A stretch of DNA of 21,020 nucleotides from a virus (IMGVR_UViG_3300030012_004901:1-21020), one strand, 5' to 3'. Counted from the stretch's first letter, positions 3,383-14,675 are shown. Notes: generated from the letters alone by a model not told the origin. Made by a program: numbers and translations.

Positions 3383-3392
3383 TATATTTATA
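3383..3392 (+). promoter_or_regulatory. Candidate late promoter (TATATTTATA)
   Basis: TATATTTATA occurs six bases after the sigma-gene stop and about 113 bases before the outer-membrane protein start. The same 10-mer stands before four other gene blocks here. The -10-like role is inferred from recurrence and position. The long leader that follows holds a direct repeat. Confidence 0.55.
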
Positions 3393-3505: not shown

Positions 3506-3916
3506 ATGAGAACAATTATTTTAACAGTAGTATTGGCTTGTGCAACCGTATTGGGAACTCAAGCGCAAACTAAAGGCGATTGGTACGTAGGTACTGGTGA
3601 CGTTGCAAATGTTGCTTGGACAGATTGGGCAGTTTCGCCAACTGTTGGATATGGTGTGACAGACAATCTTATGATTGGCCTATCCGTAGCTCAAGCAGAC
3701 TCGACAGTAGATATGGAATTAGATTTCCATGCAAGATATTTCGTAAATGGATATTTTGTGTATGCAGCAGCGAAAGGCTTAGACACAGATAACTTAAATA
3801 TCGGTCTAGGTAAAATGTTTACGTTTCACAAGAACGTATATGTAGACCCTAAAGTGGTTTACAACACAGGAGAAAAGACTACTAACTTGTTGTTAGGTTT
3901 CGGTCTTAAATTTTAA
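3506..3916 (+). CDS. Phage-encoded outer-membrane beta-barrel protein with signal peptide
   Basis: A 136-residue protein with a clear Sec signal peptide (basic MR, hydrophobic core about residues 3-17, likely cleavage after A20 in GTQA-Q). The mature part of about 115 residues has alternating strands rich in Gly, Tyr and Trp (GDWYVGTGD, SPTVGYGV, LMIGLSVAQ, DFHARYFV, GYFVYAAAKG, LNIGLGKMF, VYVDPKVVYN, TNLLLGFGLKF). It ends in phenylalanine, the terminal residue typical of BAM-inserted barrels. About eight strands fit a small OmpW/OmpX-sized barrel. AAGGAG lies 8-10 bases before the start. Possible roles are blocking superinfection or altering the envelope before lysis (inference). It sits next to a small membrane protein gene and before a terminator, so both form one unit. 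Confidence 0.8.
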   Translation: MRTIILTVVLACATVLGTQAQTKGDWYVGTGDVANVAWTDWAVSPTVGYGVTDNLMIGLSVAQADSTVDMELDFHARYFVNGYFVYAAAKGLDTDNLNIGLGKMFTFHKNVYVDPKVVYNTGEKTTNLLLGFGLKF

Positions 3917-4301: not shown

Positions 4302-4679
4302 ATGTTTGAAGAAGAAATATTTAATGGAAAGAGTTTTTCTGACTTATTAAAGGAAATTCACACAAATTCTAAAAAGAAAGATAAGCAGATAAATTCACTA
4401 ATAGCCCAATTGCATCCTCTGATTAAAAACATAAGTGATGCGACAATACTTGTTCCGTTAATAAAAGACTACTTAGACGTAGGTATAAAAAATGATGACA
4501 TGTTAGTTAAGATGGCTAGCATAGTTCAGAGAGCAACGAGTAGGTCTGAAGCTGAAGGCGGTGATTTTAGCCTTAGCGAAGATGAGAGAAAACAGTTATT
4601 AGACACAATAAAACAAGCAGAGGCCCCTGTTAAATGGGAAGAGGAAAATGCCAAGAATAGCACCAAGCAAGAAAAGTAA
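4302..4679 (+). CDS. Probable small structural protein upstream of the spike gene
   Basis: A 125-residue, mostly helical, charged protein. The first part (FNGKSFSDLLKEIHTNSKKK, a helix with KDKQINSLIAQLHPLI, then ISDATILVPLIKDYLDVGIKND and LVKMASIVQRA) matches a family I know only as uncharacterised proteins found directly before spike or hub genes in far-T4 phages. That gene order is the main reason to call it structural. The C-terminal 40 residues are Glu/Lys-rich and look disordered. AAGGGA precedes the start. The end overlaps the peptidase-spike gene by 32 bases, so translation is coupled. No catalytic motif is visible. Confidence 0.7.
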   Translation: MFEEEIFNGKSFSDLLKEIHTNSKKKDKQINSLIAQLHPLIKNISDATILVPLIKDYLDVGIKNDDMLVKMASIVQRATSRSEAEGGDFSLSEDERKQLLDTIKQAEAPVKWEEENAKNSTKQEK

Positions 4680-6312
4680 TCCATCCGTACAGGGTCAAGA
4701 AAATGCAGCTAGAGATATACAGCAAGGTATATTAGAAAATGCAGAGGTAGTTGACATAATCATGGATGAGGGTCACCCTGCATGGAATCCAAGCCAATAT
4801 AGAATTATCGGTTCTATTCAGGCTCGAGCTTTCCCTAGACAGTTTGGTGTAGGGGTTGAATCTTGTGGATGGTACAACCCATTGTTTCCAAATCTTAGAC
4901 AGTATCCTTTACTTGGCGAGATAGTACTACTTATTGCAGCAGCTAGTAGGGCTGCCCAATTAAGAAGTTCTGCTAGAGAAAAATATTATATGAGCATGCC
5001 TGTTGGAGTCTGGCAAGGCGTTAATCAAAATGGACTGCCGGCTTCAAGCTACAATATCAATAGGGCGATTGAAAACCCTGAAAAAAATTATAGAGGTTTT
5101 ACTGGTAACCCAAAAGGAGATGCCAACGATTTACCATTCGGAGAATACTTTGAAGGTGCAGCTGTTCCTAGACTTTTTCCTTATGAAGGAGACACTATAT
5201 TTGAAGGTAGATTTGGACAAGGTCTTAGGTTTGGTAGTGGTGCACCAGAAGCGGTAACTGCAAATGATTGGTCTAAAGACGGGGTCCCTGGCGCCCCAAT
5301 AACAATTTTATCTAATGGTCTTTCAACAGAAGACAGTGCGTACCACCAAGAAAACGTAAATGAAGATTCTGCAGGAATATGGCTTTGTGATGGTCAAAGC
5401 GTGCCAATAGATGTTTCTTCAAAGCTTGCAGATTCTTATGCGACTGCCTTTGAAAAGGCTGAACAAGAGGAAAGGTCAAAAATTGATCCACTCCCTGAAG
5501 GCCGCCAACCAGATGCCGGAGCATCTAGTGGAGCAAACGCTGAAAAGAATCAAGGCGTAGGTAGTACAGCAGAAGATAATAAAGGAAACCCAGCGCCAGG
5601 AGACGGCACAGATGCAGGAGATGAAGCTCCAACTCCAGCCCCAGAGCCAGATGCAGATATAGAAGAGGCAGTTGAAGAACTACCTGAAGCTGGTGAATTT
5701 GATGCATACGTAAGAGGAGCATTCCAAAAAACAATAACTTGCGTTATCATTGACGGAAAGCTAGTAGACAAGGCTTTTGCCGATAAAGTACTACAGATAA
5801 AACAAGATGCATCAAAAGATGGAGTTACTGTAAGATTAAACAGTGGTTTTAGACCGATGGAGGTGGCGTCTGGCCCAGGATACTTTACCGACGGACAAAG
5901 AACAATAAGAAGGAAAAACGTCGATAGAAAATATGAAGGTACAAAATCTGGTCTTAGTAAACCTGCAGGAACAGCCGACGACGGATGGGCAGCTCAAGGA
6001 AGACAAAGAGGTTATTTTAGCCCGCTAACCGCTGGTCCAGGTTATTCAAAACACCAGAATGGTACAGCTATGGATGTACAAACAGGTATGCCTGGTGATA
6101 AAGAAAAAATCAATGGCGTATGGAAATTAAAGAGTCTAGAAAAAACTCCTGAAAGAATCACTAAAACATATAAGTGGCTAGTTGCTAACATGGCAAAATA
6201 CGGCATGATTAGAACTGTTGCAACAGAAAGATGGCACTGGGAATATCACCCAGGAGCAGGACCATTTTCAAGAATAGCTAGAAACGATCCTTCTTGGGAC
6301 GGACTAGTTTAG
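4648..6312 (+). CDS. Spike/hub-type baseplate protein fused to an M15 (VanY-like) peptidase
   Basis: A 554-residue protein in three parts. Residues about 30-270 look like an OB-fold adaptor and spike base: a strand with YRIIGSIQARAF, then PLFPNLRQYPLLGEIVLLIA, then EGRFGQGLRFGS at 186-197, a signature I associate with phage spike or baseplate proteins. Residues about 280-348 are an acidic Pro/Ala/Gly linker. Residues about 350-554 carry the D-Ala-D-Ala carboxypeptidase/endopeptidase M15 signature: R402 (SGFRP), H469 and D476 in SKHQNGTAMD, then E527-R-W-H530 in ERWHWEY. The zinc ligands are H469, D476 and H530, and E527 is the base. It would cut peptide cross-links in host peptidoglycan when the tail penetrates, the role played by the lysozyme domain in T4 gp5. 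AGAGG precedes the start, inside the gene before it. Confidence 0.85.
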   Translation: MPRIAPSKKSNPSVQGQENAARDIQQGILENAEVVDIIMDEGHPAWNPSQYRIIGSIQARAFPRQFGVGVESCGWYNPLFPNLRQYPLLGEIVLLIAAASRAAQLRSSAREKYYMSMPVGVWQGVNQNGLPASSYNINRAIENPEKNYRGFTGNPKGDANDLPFGEYFEGAAVPRLFPYEGDTIFEGRFGQGLRFGSGAPEAVTANDWSKDGVPGAPITILSNGLSTEDSAYHQENVNEDSAGIWLCDGQSVPIDVSSKLADSYATAFEKAEQEERSKIDPLPEGRQPDAGASSGANAEKNQGVGSTAEDNKGNPAPGDGTDAGDEAPTPAPEPDADIEEAVEELPEAGEFDAYVRGAFQKTITCVIIDGKLVDKAFADKVLQIKQDASKDGVTVRLNSGFRPMEVASGPGYFTDGQRTIRRKNVDRKYEGTKSGLSKPAGTADDGWAAQGRQRGYFSPLTAGPGYSKHQNGTAMDVQTGMPGDKEKINGVWKLKSLEKTPERITKTYKWLVANMAKYGMIRTVATERWHWEYHPGAGPFSRIARNDPSWDGLV

Positions 6313-7167: not shown

Positions 7168-7207
7168 AATAAACACGGCCATACTCAAATAAAATACCAA
7201 TTATTTT

Positions 7208-7217
7208 TATATTTATA
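7208..7217 (+). promoter_or_regulatory. Candidate late promoter of the surface-chemistry cassette
   Basis: TATATTTATA lies 34 bases before the first cassette gene. A weak AT-only inverted repeat (AAATAA at 7187-7192 with TTATTT at 7201-7206) is just upstream. This copy makes the cassette a transcription unit separate from the baseplate genes before it. Confidence 0.6.
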
Positions 7218-7251
7218 TATAGTAGATAGTTATAGATTTAGGGGAACAATA

Positions 7252-8346
7252 ATGAATGTTTTAATTCCAATGGCTGGAGAAGGGTCAAGATTCAAGATTA
7301 ACGGATACGAGCTACCAAAACCTTTAATAGAAGTTGATGGTGAACCAATGATTAAAAAAGCTGTGTCAACGTTGAATCTACAAGGAAGGCATATCTTCGT
7401 TACCAGAAAATATGAAAATAATTCTAACAATGAAAAGTTAAGAAAGACTCTTAAAGAAATATCTCCAAATTGCATCATATTAGAAATAGATAAACTTACA
7501 AATGGTTCGGCTGAAACTTGTCTAATAGCAAAAGATTATATAGATAATTCTGAGGAACTAATAATTACAAACTGTGACCAATTGATGGAATGGGACTCTA
7601 CCCTTTTTAACAACTTTATTAAGGGAGAAATGGATGGAGCAGTTGTAACATATACTTCACAAGACCCAAAAAATAGTTTTGTAGAATTAGGAAAGGATAA
7701 CAAGGCTAAAAAGATAGTAGAAAAAGACGTTATATCAAATATTGCCTTGATAGGCTTGCACTACTGGAAAAAAGGATCTGATTTCGTAGATTCTGTTGAG
7801 GAAATGATAAAAAATGATATAAGACATAAGAACGAATATTATGTAGCACCAACGTATAATTCTCTAATAAAAAAAGGTAAAGACATAAGAGTTTACCATC
7901 TAGGAGAAAATCAATACATTCCAGTTGGAACGCCAAACGATTTAAACCTATACATAGGAAGAAAAAGAGAATACAATAAAGATAAGTTAAAAACAATAAT
8001 TTGTGATATAGACGGAACAATACTTAAGCACATTCATAAATACTCTAGGTTAAATGAGAGACCTCAAATATTAACTGGTGTTAGAGAAAAGATAGATGAA
8101 TGGGATTCTACTGGCCATAAAATTATACTTATGACTGGAAGAAAAGAATCAGCTAGAAAAGTAACGGAAAAATTTTTAGAAGAATTAGCAATACCATACG
8201 ACCAATTGATTATGGGAGTAGGTAATGGTAATAGAATTTTAATTAACGATAAAATAACGCAAGTTTCTTTCGATAGAGCTTCATCAGTTAACGTTGTAAC
8301 CAATGGCGGGTTCAATGATACCGACTGGAAAAAATACGGATTGTAA
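7252..8346 (+). CDS. Bifunctional sugar-phosphate nucleotidyltransferase / HAD phosphatase
   Basis: A 364-residue fusion. Residues 1 to about 235 are a nucleotidyltransferase: the nucleotide-binding loop MAGEGSRF (G9, G11, R13), PKPLIEV (K23) and the metal-site strand TNCDQ (D109). Enzymes of this class join a sugar or polyol phosphate to an NTP. Residues about 247-364 are a HAD-type hydrolase: CDIDGT (D252 nucleophile, D254 acid), MTGR (T295) and ILINDK (D333). One chain would thus both release phosphate and activate a substrate in the same pathway. The exact substrate is not readable. GGGG (7241-7244) lies 7 bases before the ATG. The stop overlaps the cupin start (TAATG). An LicC-type cytidylyltransferase is one alternative for the first half. 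Confidence 0.8.
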   Translation: MNVLIPMAGEGSRFKINGYELPKPLIEVDGEPMIKKAVSTLNLQGRHIFVTRKYENNSNNEKLRKTLKEISPNCIILEIDKLTNGSAETCLIAKDYIDNSEELIITNCDQLMEWDSTLFNNFIKGEMDGAVVTYTSQDPKNSFVELGKDNKAKKIVEKDVISNIALIGLHYWKKGSDFVDSVEEMIKNDIRHKNEYYVAPTYNSLIKKGKDIRVYHLGENQYIPVGTPNDLNLYIGRKREYNKDKLKTIICDIDGTILKHIHKYSRLNERPQILTGVREKIDEWDSTGHKIILMTGRKESARKVTEKFLEELAIPYDQLIMGVGNGNRILINDKITQVSFDRASSVNVVTNGGFNDTDWKKYGL

Positions 8347-8678
8347 TGAAAATATTTAAACTAAAGGATATGAAACAAGGATGGTTCTTTGGTAATTTTG
8401 AACCTTCTGCATACAAGGATAGCGAAGTTGAAGTTTGTTATAGGGTACACCCAAAAGGAGAGAAATGGGAATGGCATTATCACAAAGAAATTACAGAGGT
8501 TAATGTTTTAATTGAAGGAAAAATGATTATGCATGGTAAAACTTTAGTCTCTGGAGACATATTTACAATAGAGCCGTATGAAATATCCGACCAAGAATTC
8601 TTAGAAGACTGTAAAATAATTTGCGTAAAAACAAAAAACAAACCAAAAGACAAATATATTGTAAAGGTTGAATCATGA
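8346..8678 (+). CDS. Cupin-fold protein of the cassette
   Basis: A 110-residue single-domain cupin. The first cupin motif is visible as W43-H44-Y-H46 with E51 (HYHKEITEVNVLIEGK), followed by GKTLVSGDIFTIEPYEI and DCKIICVKT, the second half of the barrel. The histidine expected in the second motif is absent, so metal binding would be incomplete, or the protein may bind sugar without metal. Small cupins in polysaccharide loci are often sugar isomerases or epimerases, or accessory binding proteins. Which one applies here cannot be read. The start overlaps the upstream stop by one base and the end overlaps the next gene (ATGA), so it is translated as part of a tight operon. Confidence 0.7.
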   Translation: MKIFKLKDMKQGWFFGNFEPSAYKDSEVEVCYRVHPKGEKWEWHYHKEITEVNVLIEGKMIMHGKTLVSGDIFTIEPYEISDQEFLEDCKIICVKTKNKPKDKYIVKVES

Positions 8679-9109
8679 AACTAATATCACACAGAGGAAA
8701 TATAAACGGAAAAAAACCTAAATTAGAAAATATGCCTGAATACATAGATAAAGCCCTTGATTTAGGATATGATGTAGAAATTGACGTTTGGTATACTGAT
8801 GGATTTTGGTTAGGACACGATGAGCCACAATATAAGACCGATGTTGAATATTTATCTAAACCTGGACTGTGGTGCCACGCAAAAAACAATGACGCACTAT
8901 TTGAATTATCAAAAAATGCAGACAGAATTATGCAATATTTTTGGCACCAAGAAGACGATTTTACCTTAACTTCACAAGGTTATTTATGGACATATCCTGG
9001 AAAAAAATTATATCCTAATAGTATATGTGTTTTGCCTGAGCTTGTTAAACATGTAAATATTACTAACTGTTATGGTATCTGTAGTGACGAGATAGAGAGA
9101 TATAGATGA
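8675..9109 (+). CDS. Glycerophosphodiester phosphodiesterase-like protein (short)
   Basis: A 144-residue protein with the ordered catalytic signature of the GDPD/PI-PLC-like family: H6-R7-G8, E18-N19, E35-I-D37 and G47-H48-D49. These correspond to the HRG, EN, ExD and HD motifs that hold the metal and the phosphodiester. Known full-length GDPDs have about 230-250 residues forming a complete TIM barrel. This one stops early, after CYGICSDEIERYR, yet shows conserved-looking segments (GLWCHAKN, GYLWTYPGKKL), so it is probably a natural short family and not a fragment. It could release glycerol phosphate or choline from a phosphodiester, or trim a glycan phosphate (inference). AAAGG precedes the start, and ATGA overlaps join it to both neighbours. 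Confidence 0.7.
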   Translation: MKLISHRGNINGKKPKLENMPEYIDKALDLGYDVEIDVWYTDGFWLGHDEPQYKTDVEYLSKPGLWCHAKNNDALFELSKNADRIMQYFWHQEDDFTLTSQGYLWTYPGKKLYPNSICVLPELVKHVNITNCYGICSDEIERYR

Positions 9110-9900
9110 AAATAGCTATACTATTTCATGGGCACCTTCGAAGTTTTAGAAATACAAAGGATAGTTTTAACGAGAAAGTATTAAATAGCTTGTCATCTTT
9201 TGGTTTTAAACAAGATACGTTTATACACACATGGGATAAAGAAGAATTTTTAACTAAAACTTGGCATGAAGGCGCAAAAACAGCAATACCAACTTCAACC
9301 GATGAAGTCAAAAAAGCATATAACCCAAAAGGATTATCTATTGAAAAGCAAGAGTTAAAAAATACAAAAGATATTTTTGGAAGACCATACGATTCATTTA
9401 AGTCCTATTGGTATAGTCTCTATCAAGCTTTCATGTTGATGAAAAATTATGAAGAAAAAAATCAATTTAAGTATGACTCTATAATTGTAACTAGACCCGA
9501 TGTTCAATATTTTTCTAATATATTTTTATCAGAGATAGAAAAACAAGACACACTATGGCAATGCCAAGTATACACAAAGAGAGCAGCATCAGATGTTTTA
9601 TTTTATGGCAATAGAGACACGATAGAGAAATCAATAGTTTTATTTTACGAAAATTTTGATGATTTACATTCTGATAAAAATGTATCAAAATACGTAAACA
9701 ACGAGTATATATTCAATGACTTCATTTCTTTTAATTGCAATGTTAGGCAATCAAAGTATTGCATGCCTAGAGATTGGAGAATACTTAGAAGTTGGTGGAA
9801 ACCAAACCATGTCGTAGGCCATAAGAAATGGGATAAAAATTTGTGTGAACAAGACATAAAATCAAACAACAAATATAAATTTTACAGGCATGACAAATAA
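9106..9900 (+). CDS. Glycosyltransferase-like protein of the cassette
   Basis: A 264-residue protein that begins with a strand-and-loop KIAILFHGHLRSF, has H41-T-W-D44 (FIHTWD) after the second strand, and R130-P-D132 (IVTRPD) near the middle. This is the layout of a nucleotide-sugar-binding Rossmann-type fold, with RPD in place of the usual DxD metal motif. Similar 'GH.R.F ... HTWD ... TRPD' proteins occur in polysaccharide gene clusters and in aquatic phages as putative glycosyltransferases (recalled). I cannot name donor or acceptor. There is no membrane segment, so it should act in the cytoplasm. The start overlaps the previous stop (ATGA), and the end overlaps the sulfotransferase gene by 11 bases. 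Confidence 0.6.
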   Translation: MKIAILFHGHLRSFRNTKDSFNEKVLNSLSSFGFKQDTFIHTWDKEEFLTKTWHEGAKTAIPTSTDEVKKAYNPKGLSIEKQELKNTKDIFGRPYDSFKSYWYSLYQAFMLMKNYEEKNQFKYDSIIVTRPDVQYFSNIFLSEIEKQDTLWQCQVYTKRAASDVLFYGNRDTIEKSIVLFYENFDDLHSDKNVSKYVNNEYIFNDFISFNCNVRQSKYCMPRDWRILRSWWKPNHVVGHKKWDKNLCEQDIKSNNKYKFYRHDK

Positions 9901-10531
9901 CTTATACAAAACAATATTTATTCATTTTTCAAAAACAGGCGGTTCGAGCATAGAGAATTATTTTGGTTCAAGAGACGGCGTGATAACAACAGAGGTTACC
10001 TTGACAGATGGGTCTAGAAAAACAATAACCGAGTCCCATCACATGAGCTCTGAAAAATATGTGAAAAACAATGGAATCGATGTTTGGCAAGACTTTTTTA
10101 AGTTTTCATTCGTTAGAAATCCATGGGACTGGTTTGTATCTCATTTCCATTGGGATATAAAGCAATACCATATAGCTTTAAAAGAAGGAAGACCAATAAA
10201 GTACAGGAGAAAATTTATTGTCGAAGAATGCAATAGTGATTTCAAAACCTACGTTAAAGAAGGAGCAAAAAGACCAGATTGGTTTGTTTTTCCGGACATG
10301 GTGGACTATTGTAAAGGCGTAGATTTCATAGGGAAGTTTGAAAGGTTACAAGATGATTTTGATATTGTTTGTGAAAAAATAAATGCCCCAAAGAAAACGT
10401 TGCCACACCTAAAAAAACCTGATCCAAGGCCCCACTACTCTAAATTTTATGACCAAAGGTGTATAGATATTGTTTATGGTATTATGCAAAAAGATATAGA
10501 TTTCTTTAAGTACACATTCGAATCTAAATAA
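9890..10531 (+). CDS. PAPS-dependent sulfotransferase family protein
   Basis: A 213-residue protein with both sulfate-donor-binding motifs. The 5'-phosphosulfate loop is FIHFSKTGGSSI (K15, T16, S19, S20). The 3'-phosphate motif is FVRNPWDWFVSHF (R76, S84). Then comes a segment VDFIGKFERLQDDF and a His/Pro-rich stretch before the final helix. This layout fits the membrane-associated or carbohydrate sulfotransferase group (Sulfotransfer_2-like). The usual product is a sulfated sugar, using PAPS from host metabolism. It has no membrane anchor. As the last gene of the cassette it probably finishes the product made by its neighbours. Starts ATG 9890 inside the upstream gene without a good ribosome binding site, so coupled translation is likely. 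Confidence 0.8.
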   Translation: MTNNLYKTIFIHFSKTGGSSIENYFGSRDGVITTEVTLTDGSRKTITESHHMSSEKYVKNNGIDVWQDFFKFSFVRNPWDWFVSHFHWDIKQYHIALKEGRPIKYRRKFIVEECNSDFKTYVKEGAKRPDWFVFPDMVDYCKGVDFIGKFERLQDDFDIVCEKINAPKKTLPHLKKPDPRPHYSKFYDQRCIDIVYGIMQKDIDFFKYTFESK

Positions 10532-10542
10532 TATAACAATAT

Positions 10543-10556
10543 GAGTAACGTTACTC
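10543..10556. other. Perfect 14-base palindrome after the cassette
   Basis: GAGTAACGTTACTC is a perfect palindrome 11 bases after the sulfotransferase stop and 29 bases before the next candidate promoter. No T run follows (GTAGAAG), so it is not a standard intrinsic terminator. It could be an operator for a dimeric protein or a hairpin that protects the 3' end. Confidence 0.5.
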
Positions 10557-10585
10557 GTAGAAGAAGTTAATATTTGCCGTTTATT

Positions 10586-10595
10586 GATATTTATA
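10586..10595 (+). promoter_or_regulatory. Candidate late promoter (GATATTTATA)
   Basis: GATATTTATA has one mismatch to the TATATTTATA motif seen at the other four sites. It lies 38 bases before the ATG at 10634 and starts the second baseplate block. Confidence 0.5.
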
Positions 10596-10633
10596 TATTG
10601 ATAAATAGTGTATACCACAAGGAGATTTTACTT

Positions 10634-13508: not shown

Positions 13509-14675
13509 ATGATATATTCAATAAAAGCAAATAGAGATACAACCATATATGAAGCAACCGAAAGCTTAAACGCTGGAATAGATGAAGTATTGGAACTTCA
13601 AAAAATAGTATCTGCTTCAAATACTTCAAATACATTTAATTCTAGAATCTTGATTGATTTTGATTTAGAGAATATATCTCAGTCTGTAGCTGCAGCCGTA
13701 ATAGGTAATTATCCAGGTTTAAGTTCACCAAAATATATACTTAACCTGTATACCCTTCAAGCAACAGAGATAGACTATAAATATGGAATAGAAGCTTTTC
13801 CAGTAAGTCAGTCTTGGTTAATGGGAAGAGGTAGAAGAATAGACAAGGTTGGTGGAGGACCAAGCGATCACGTAACAGAAGGGGCTAGTTGGAAATTTAG
13901 AGATGGAGAAAAGTATTTTGGAAATCAATGGGCCAGCGGCAGTCAAATAGATGGAAATTCAACGGGCTCTTTTTCTACAACTATTGGAGGAGGAACATGG
14001 TACACAAGTTCTAAGGCTTCACAATCCTTTAATTATGAAGGAACAGACCTGAGACTCGATGTTACCGATATAGTCAATGACTGGTTCAATGGAACTAGAG
14101 TACAAGATGGATTCATCATACTAAGAAGTGGATCCCAAGAAGGAGGAGAGGTTGATGAAGAGAGAAATGGAAGACCATACGGATCCTTACAATTCTTCTC
14201 ATCAGACACTCACACAGTATATCAACCTAAATTAGAGGTGTTATGGCGTGACGCAACTACCTCGTCTGATTTAAACGTATTAGATACAACTCTTACTGAG
14301 AGTATAGTTGACATAAAAAATATGAAGTCTTCATATGAAAGAGATTCTAGAGAAACGTTTAGGCTCGTTGTTAGAGAAAAATTTCCTGCAAAGACCTTTG
14401 ATACAGTATCAGCGGCGCTTACAAATAACATTTTACCACAACAATCTTATTACTCTGTTAGAGACTACGTAACGGACGAAGTAGTAATACCATTTGATAA
14501 TTCAGCAACACAGCTTAGTACAGACAACAATGGAAATTACTTTACTCTTTGGATGGATCAGTTCTACCCAGAAAGAAGATATAAATTTGTATTTAAGACT
14601 GTTGGTGGAAACTATAATTACCCTACAAGTCAAAGTATTTTTGATAACGAATATATATTTAAGGTGACTAAATAA
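13509..14675 (+). CDS. DNRLRE-like tail/baseplate structural protein
   Basis: A 388-residue, beta-rich protein. Its N-terminal 230 residues look like a DNRLRE-type jelly roll: it opens with IKANRDTTIYEATESLNAGI, has SRILIDFDLENI (about residues 45-56) and later LRLDVTDIVNDWFNGTRV followed by DGFIILRSG. That matches the 'sDtyv......n.g....L......s.aLlrFDL ... vDVT..v..W..G....GfaL' layout. The last 150 residues are a second beta domain (ETFRLVVREKFPAKTF, VRDYVTDEVVIPFDN, FYPERRYKFVFKTVGG). Such domains occur on extracellular or virion surfaces. Between gene 6 and the giant protein it most likely belongs to the outer baseplate. AGGAG lies 8 bases before the start. The stop overlaps the next ATG (TAATG). 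Confidence 0.65.
   Translation: MIYSIKANRDTTIYEATESLNAGIDEVLELQKIVSASNTSNTFNSRILIDFDLENISQSVAAAVIGNYPGLSSPKYILNLYTLQATEIDYKYGIEAFPVSQSWLMGRGRRIDKVGGGPSDHVTEGASWKFRDGEKYFGNQWASGSQIDGNSTGSFSTTIGGGTWYTSSKASQSFNYEGTDLRLDVTDIVNDWFNGTRVQDGFIILRSGSQEGGEVDEERNGRPYGSLQFFSSDTHTVYQPKLEVLWRDATTSSDLNVLDTTLTESIVDIKNMKSSYERDSRETFRLVVREKFPAKTFDTVSAALTNNILPQQSYYSVRDYVTDEVVIPFDNSATQLSTDNNGNYFTLWMDQFYPERRYKFVFKTVGGNYNYPTSQSIFDNEYIFKVTK

Follow-up and report, generated by a model that had tools for sequence, protein, structure and literature searches.

Five intact, overlapping ORFs occupy positions 7252-10531 (+ strand) of IMGVR_UViG_3300030012_004901:1-21020, the 21,020-nt stretch of DNA that was analysed as a whole and is referred to here as the window. 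With moderate confidence, we interpret this set as a cassette for glycan remodelling that a T4-related marine myovirus acquired horizontally. When gp6 is compared, Microcystis phage Mel-JY01 (49%) and the Flavobacterium phages immuto (41%) come nearest among cultured phages. An earlier note on this DNA had also proposed a cassette for glycan modification, a proposal supported by the intact catalytic motifs, by homologues elsewhere that keep the whole gene order and by relatives that cleanly lack the genes.

The five genes and their probable insertion

The features discussed in this work are the following:

7168-10567 (+/- few bases), + strand: whole inserted segment, delimited by the empty sites of 14 relatives
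7209-7217, + strand: ATATTTATA, promoter-like, located in the leader 43 nt ahead of the first ATG of the cassette
7252-8346, + strand: nucleotidyltransferase (NT, residues 1-238) fused to a capless HAD phosphatase (residues 246-364), by Pfam, phrog and PDB matches
8346-8678, + strand: single-domain cupin (phrog_24762 4e-31; weak Cupin_2; HxH cupin motif)
8675-9109, + strand: 144-aa GDPD-like mini barrel (mini-GDPD), by invariant residues, AlphaFold model and Z 10.7 to GDPD 1o1z
9106-9900, + strand: GT-A-fold glycosyltransferase-like protein (GT6-like fold, DUF7796-related), by predicted fold
9890-10531, + strand: carbohydrate-type sulfotransferase (Sulfotransfer_2 2.5e-11; phrog_3347 9e-21)
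10568-10633, + strand: ancestral spacer before g18, with a promoter-like motif at 10587; 13 relatives have a matching empty site

The gene junctions are TAATG at 8346, ATGA at 8675, ATGA at 9106 and an 11-base overlap at 9890-9900, exactly as the earlier note had described them, and the five genes are co-transcribable. Upstream of the cassette lies the VanY-bearing g10 of the spike region, downstream lie gp25 and gp6, which confirms its placement between the spike block and genes 25 and 6. The spike-region protein (4648-6312) carries a VanY D-Ala-D-Ala carboxypeptidase domain. Further upstream, a small protein (3506-3916) resembles an outer-membrane beta-barrel with a signal peptide; it is conserved at 81-89% in most relatives but at only 30% in the contig L029.

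Scans with gp6 and g12 gathered 14 related phage contigs, all of which (14/14) have an empty site, the stop of g12 being followed by g18 across a 68-73 bp spacer; no filled site was found among them. Because the relatives have just this spacer, ~3.4 kb has most likely been inserted, and the comparison with relatives devoid of the genes, suggested in the earlier note, thus yields a clean empty site. In the window the same spacer adjoins g18 (from ~10567), and the additional sequence separates it from the stop of g12. Insertion in the lineage of the window is the simplest reading; loss from all other lineages is a possible alternative. The flanking genes on both sides of the insert share ~56-93% identity with those of the relatives. 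No convincing terminal repeats were found at the insert ends. The right end contains a perfect 14-nt palindrome, GAGTAACGTTACTC (10543-10556), which is absent from all 261 loci searched.

On its + strand the window has five copies of the motif ATATTTATA (at 3384, 4278, 7209, 10587 and 20836), always in intergenic sequence, which amounts to 3.6% of the window (751 bases). The copies sit 24-122 nt before start codons and are found at corresponding places in the relatives; ATATTTATA is likely a phage promoter element. One copy resides in the ancestral spacer and another in the leader of the insert. Since the insert carries its own copy, the cassette appears equipped for expression by the window phage. 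Of the candidate late promoter that the earlier note had placed on each side of the cassette, the promoter-like elements stand (ATATTTATA at 7209 and 10587) and the attribute "late" is unsupported: the T4 late consensus TATAAATA was not found in sense orientation ahead of the cassette, and its single + strand copy in the window, at 13776, is inside a gene.

The encoded proteins

The NT-HAD fusion matches the Pfam NTP_transf_3 and HAD families, phrog_3980 (2.5e-65) and PDB 4evw (9e-15), and its GxGSRF, PKPLI, DIDGT and IND motifs are invariant across four homologues. The NT domain is closest to sugar-1-phosphate NTs, and HddC-type structures (6-deoxy-D-mannoheptose pathway) are among its matches. 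Its fusion partners are a C-terminal HAD (40 ORFs), an N-terminal HAD_2 (97 ORFs) or a C-terminal RpiB (11 ORFs); partners as diverse as these, all three of them phospho-sugar enzymes, are good evidence for a sugar phosphate as the compound that the NT domain activates. In a SAR11 homologue (L041:1600-2973), HAD_2 precedes the NT and the GDPD is directly adjacent; NT-RpiB/LacAB isomerase fusions annotated as phosphatase are present in cultured cyanophages (L262:4835-5992 and L004:7992-9149). The cupin, whose Pfam match is weak (E 0.054), is a probable sugar isomerase or epimerase. Compared to their counterparts in the phage contig L006, dN/dS is ~0.04 for NT-HAD and ~0.03 for the cupin, which points to purifying selection on both.

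For the third protein no Pfam family was found above the cut-off, and the curated Pfam GDPD model matches none of the 70 members of its family (0/70), for which reason we call it "GDPD-like" and do not file it as a GDPD member. The family profile, nevertheless, matches the PDB GDPD 7e0v (4e-4). The AlphaFold model (pLDDT 97.3, pTM 0.91) gave weak Foldseek hits (best E 0.05), but the relationship is clear by structure comparison: 138 of the 144 residues align with 1o1z (Z 10.7, 3.4 A), the 144 residues span entire GDPD barrels of 217-251 residues (Z ~10-10.7), whereas unrelated barrels reach Z <=6.6. The protein has the fold and, by alignment, the HR, ExD, H and K residues in common with the GDPD family (GlpQ/UgpQ), and differs from it in size (144 residues versus ~220-250) and in falling below Pfam detection. 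The residues H6, R7, E35, D37, H48, H68, K70, H91 and D138 are invariant in the alignment. The third metal ligand of a GDPD is expected to be the Glu of an E-x-K motif; at this position the alignment places the invariant H68-x-K70, with a His apparently in place of the metal-binding Glu.

The glycosyltransferase-like (GT-like) protein was modelled with a pLDDT of 80.6, its C-terminal 40 residues being poorly modelled. Its best structural match is the metal-independent bacterial GT6 (4ayl/4ayj; Foldseek E 7e-7), with Z 12.6 at just ~10% identity. No Pfam family above the cut-off was found for the cassette protein itself; DUF7796 is matched by 26 of the 35 members of its family. The sulfotransferase scores 44.6 bits with Sulfotransfer_2 (cut-off 22), and its PAPS motifs, KTGGSS and RNPWDWF, are kept in the homologue of phage contig L015. 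Among 50,697 cultured phage records a single one, Stenotrophomonas DLP6, has a relative of it. The family assignments of the earlier note are thereby borne out by Pfam (NT plus HAD, Sulfotransfer_2), by phrog and the HxH motif (cupin) and by predicted folds (GDPD-like, GT-like). The same note had raised the objection that the folds might lack active sites; the predicted folds match GDPD and GT6/GT-A, and the catalytic motifs of the cassette proteins are intact and retained across homologues.

Distribution of the genes in phages and bacteria

The complete five-gene set was found in two phages only, those of the window and of contig L015, whose five genes follow one another in unchanged order and are 49-56% identical to those of the window. 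In L015 the set lies within a large surface-polysaccharide locus, the other products of which include two CMP-sugar-synthetase-like proteins, a KDO8P/DAHP-type synthase, an aminotransferase and an epimerase; gp25- and gp6-like genes are located further along the contig. The co-occurrence in related phages that the earlier note had proposed to look for is thus found in L015, with the order kept. Homologues that never co-occur, which the note had put forward as the contrary outcome, are contradicted by L015 and by the recurrence of NT, cupin and GDPD together. In contig L006, the NT-HAD and cupin genes share 91-94% protein and 87% DNA identity with those of the window, the sequences differ beyond them, and a GDPD copy is found 2 kb past the pair, a pattern indicative of recent exchange of parts. 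GroEL- and GroES-like chaperonins are apparently encoded in the phage contig of L006 (L261:2825-4750, translation inspected by eye).

We surveyed 247 loci for the NT-cupin-GDPD module. In the 34 viral NT-HAD loci, which include three contigs from earlier searches, the cupin is always present (34/34), directly downstream in 25, and a GDPD is <=4 kb away in 28. Sampling by GDPD alone gave an NT nearby in 126 of 136 loci (viral 73/80, genomic 53/56). The genomic GDPD loci belong chiefly to SAR11, and also to SAR86, Prochlorococcus, Patescibacteria and Bacteroidota. Some of the SAR11 host homologues adjoin glycosyltransferases, and the neighbours of the NT-HAD fusions include GT61, FkbM methyltransferases, epimerases, WavE and NeuB. 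The GDPD was considered as a SAR11 core gene; since strong matches are present in just 6 of 197 genomes drawn from one SAR11 family, it is accessory there. A RuBisCO-like protein (L209:6540-7733; PF00016, 1.2e-35) is encoded beside NT, cupin and GDPD, and its cluster is found at 25 viral and 7 genomic loci.

We tentatively suggest that the NT (HAD-, HAD_2- or RpiB-fused), the cupin and the mini-GDPD may together form one undescribed pathway, traded between marine phages and SAR11-type hosts, for building or editing a surface glycan that contains phosphodiesters. The mini-GDPD would then possibly rank with the smallest TIM-barrel enzymes in nature; for comparison, sTIM11, a designed barrel, is 184 residues long (PMC13105402).

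Proposed pathway and its target

In the proposed pathway, the HAD domain would dephosphorylate a host phospho-sugar, and the NT domain would activate the sugar as an NDP-sugar, the two acting in series like GmhB and HddC. The cupin would isomerise the sugar, the GT-A protein would transfer it, and the sulfotransferase would sulfate it with host PAPS; the sugar product is probably sulfated. The mini-GDPD might hydrolyse or transfer a phosphodiester-linked group, either trimming a host glycan or releasing a substrate. The cassette encodes no enzyme that makes the phospho-sugar or PAPS and therefore needs host supply, hence the "self-contained pathway" of the earlier note is not upheld. Neither is phosphocholine (Lic) decoration, which was considered and rejected: the choline kinase and LicD families are absent from the five proteins, and the NT bears most resemblance to sugar-1-phosphate NTs. 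The presence of one transferase-like gene, without a flippase or polymerase, counts against the glycan-remodelling reading.

A different version of the chemistry, which would suit a virion as well as a host-surface target, is that the NT makes a CDP-alditol or similar compound and the GDPD-like enzyme processes a phosphodiester-linked polyol, as in CDP-ribitol/CDP-glucitol capsules. The constant pairing of GDPD with NT, the cyanophage NT-RpiB fusion, which points to pentose or hexose phosphates, and the CDP-6-glucitol precedent (PMC10918830) speak for it; nevertheless we hold it to be somewhat unlikely, as the five genes include no reductase or LicD-type phosphotransferase, and the NT is less similar to IspD-type CDP-alditol enzymes than to HddC and sugar-1-phosphate NTs.

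As for the target, we consider it rather likely that the product goes onto the host LPS or capsule, altering the view that rival phages or grazers have of the cell. The host surface is favoured because polysaccharide loci, in phages as in free-living bacteria, are where the module resides. The insertion inside a structural operon keeps alive the alternative that the cassette glycosylates and sulfates the tail or baseplate proteins of the phage itself; the site between spike and baseplate wedge genes and a promoter-like motif common to structural genes agree with this, but elsewhere the same genes belong to polysaccharide loci, both in phages and in the free-living bacteria SAR11 and SAR86, which have no virions, and we regard modification of the virion as unlikely.

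Two further explanations were considered. That a chimeric assembly set foreign genes between baseplate genes is very improbable: the insertion is known from a single assembly, no second contig with the exact right junction having been found, but the left and right flanks show synteny with one and the same set of relatives and join exactly at the spacer, and the intergenic motif of the phage itself is present in the insert. Passive host-derived cargo of no selected function, dispensable inasmuch as it is missing from 14 relatives, is hardly credible in view of the low dN/dS of NT-HAD and cupin against L006, the intact motifs and a five-gene order maintained at ~50% identity.

Comparison with known systems

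Phage LPS/capsule clusters with epimerases, cupins, kinases, NTs, HAD phosphatases and glycosyltransferases have been described, with the same superinfection (rival-blocking) hypothesis (PMC7824862, PMC7029224, PMC9602691); in the available portions of these three papers the mini-GDPD and the sulfotransferase are not named. The clusters of the T4-like marine cyanophages P-SSM2, S-SSM7 and S-SCSM1 resemble the cassette in combining glycosyltransferases with an NT, a cupin and a HAD phosphatase, and a host-surface change that blocks rivals was likewise proposed for them (PMC7824862); compared to what is given there, the cassette is distinguished by having five genes, its location in a baseplate spacer, the sulfotransferase and the mini-GDPD. 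NDP-sugar synthesis and a glycosyltransferase, a combination expected of an LPS/capsule cluster, occur together in the cassette as NT-HAD and a GT-A fold in one operon. Several glycosyltransferases and epimerases are present in the L015 and L006 loci and absent from the insert; with one GT-like gene and no epimerase, the cassette is a reduced variant and not a full LPS/capsule cluster. The glycosyltransferases of the pelagimyophage host-recognition cluster are also surface-glycan genes near marine myophage tail genes, but that cluster, in the part of PMC7029224 consulted, is 44 kb long, variable and associated with tail fibres, in contrast to the compact cassette. In heptose activation, GmhB (HAD) and HddC (NT) likewise catalyse consecutive phosphatase and NT steps, which the cassette fuses in one protein, without the kinase and isomerase.

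The Synechococcus phages SynMITS9220M01, Bellamy, S-CAM9 and S-PRM1 have homologous NT and GDPD-like genes, and SynMITS9220M01 and Bellamy have the cupin and GT-like genes too, in NT-cupin-GT-like runs with the same GDPD nearby; the matches are at 26-48% identity. The NT of these phages has RpiB or HAD_2 as its fusion partner, unlike the C-terminal HAD of the cassette, no sulfotransferase relative was found at E 1e-5, and the region adjoins tRNA and metabolic genes. In the cyanophage NT-cupin-GT-GDPD run the annotations read hypothetical, phosphatase or capsular polysaccharide biosynthesis protein. In the light of these runs, and of the clusters covered in the consulted parts of the three papers above, the assertion of the earlier note that no phage system with this combination had been described is too strong. 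The NT-cupin-GDPD-sulfotransferase set is not named as a unit in the open literature searched; what is new is the compact five-gene form, its insertion site, the sulfotransferase, and the fact that the mini-GDPD is recognised as a family tied to the NT.

The cassette offers a clean empty-site comparison and a case of surface-glycan genes moving into an operon of structural genes as a small unit that brings its own promoter-like motif. At hundreds of loci in marine phages, and in some genomes of SAR11, a Pfam-orphan GDPD-like family is tied to one NT, and with a few small enzymes at hand the long-standing guess on the role of phage LPS genes becomes testable.
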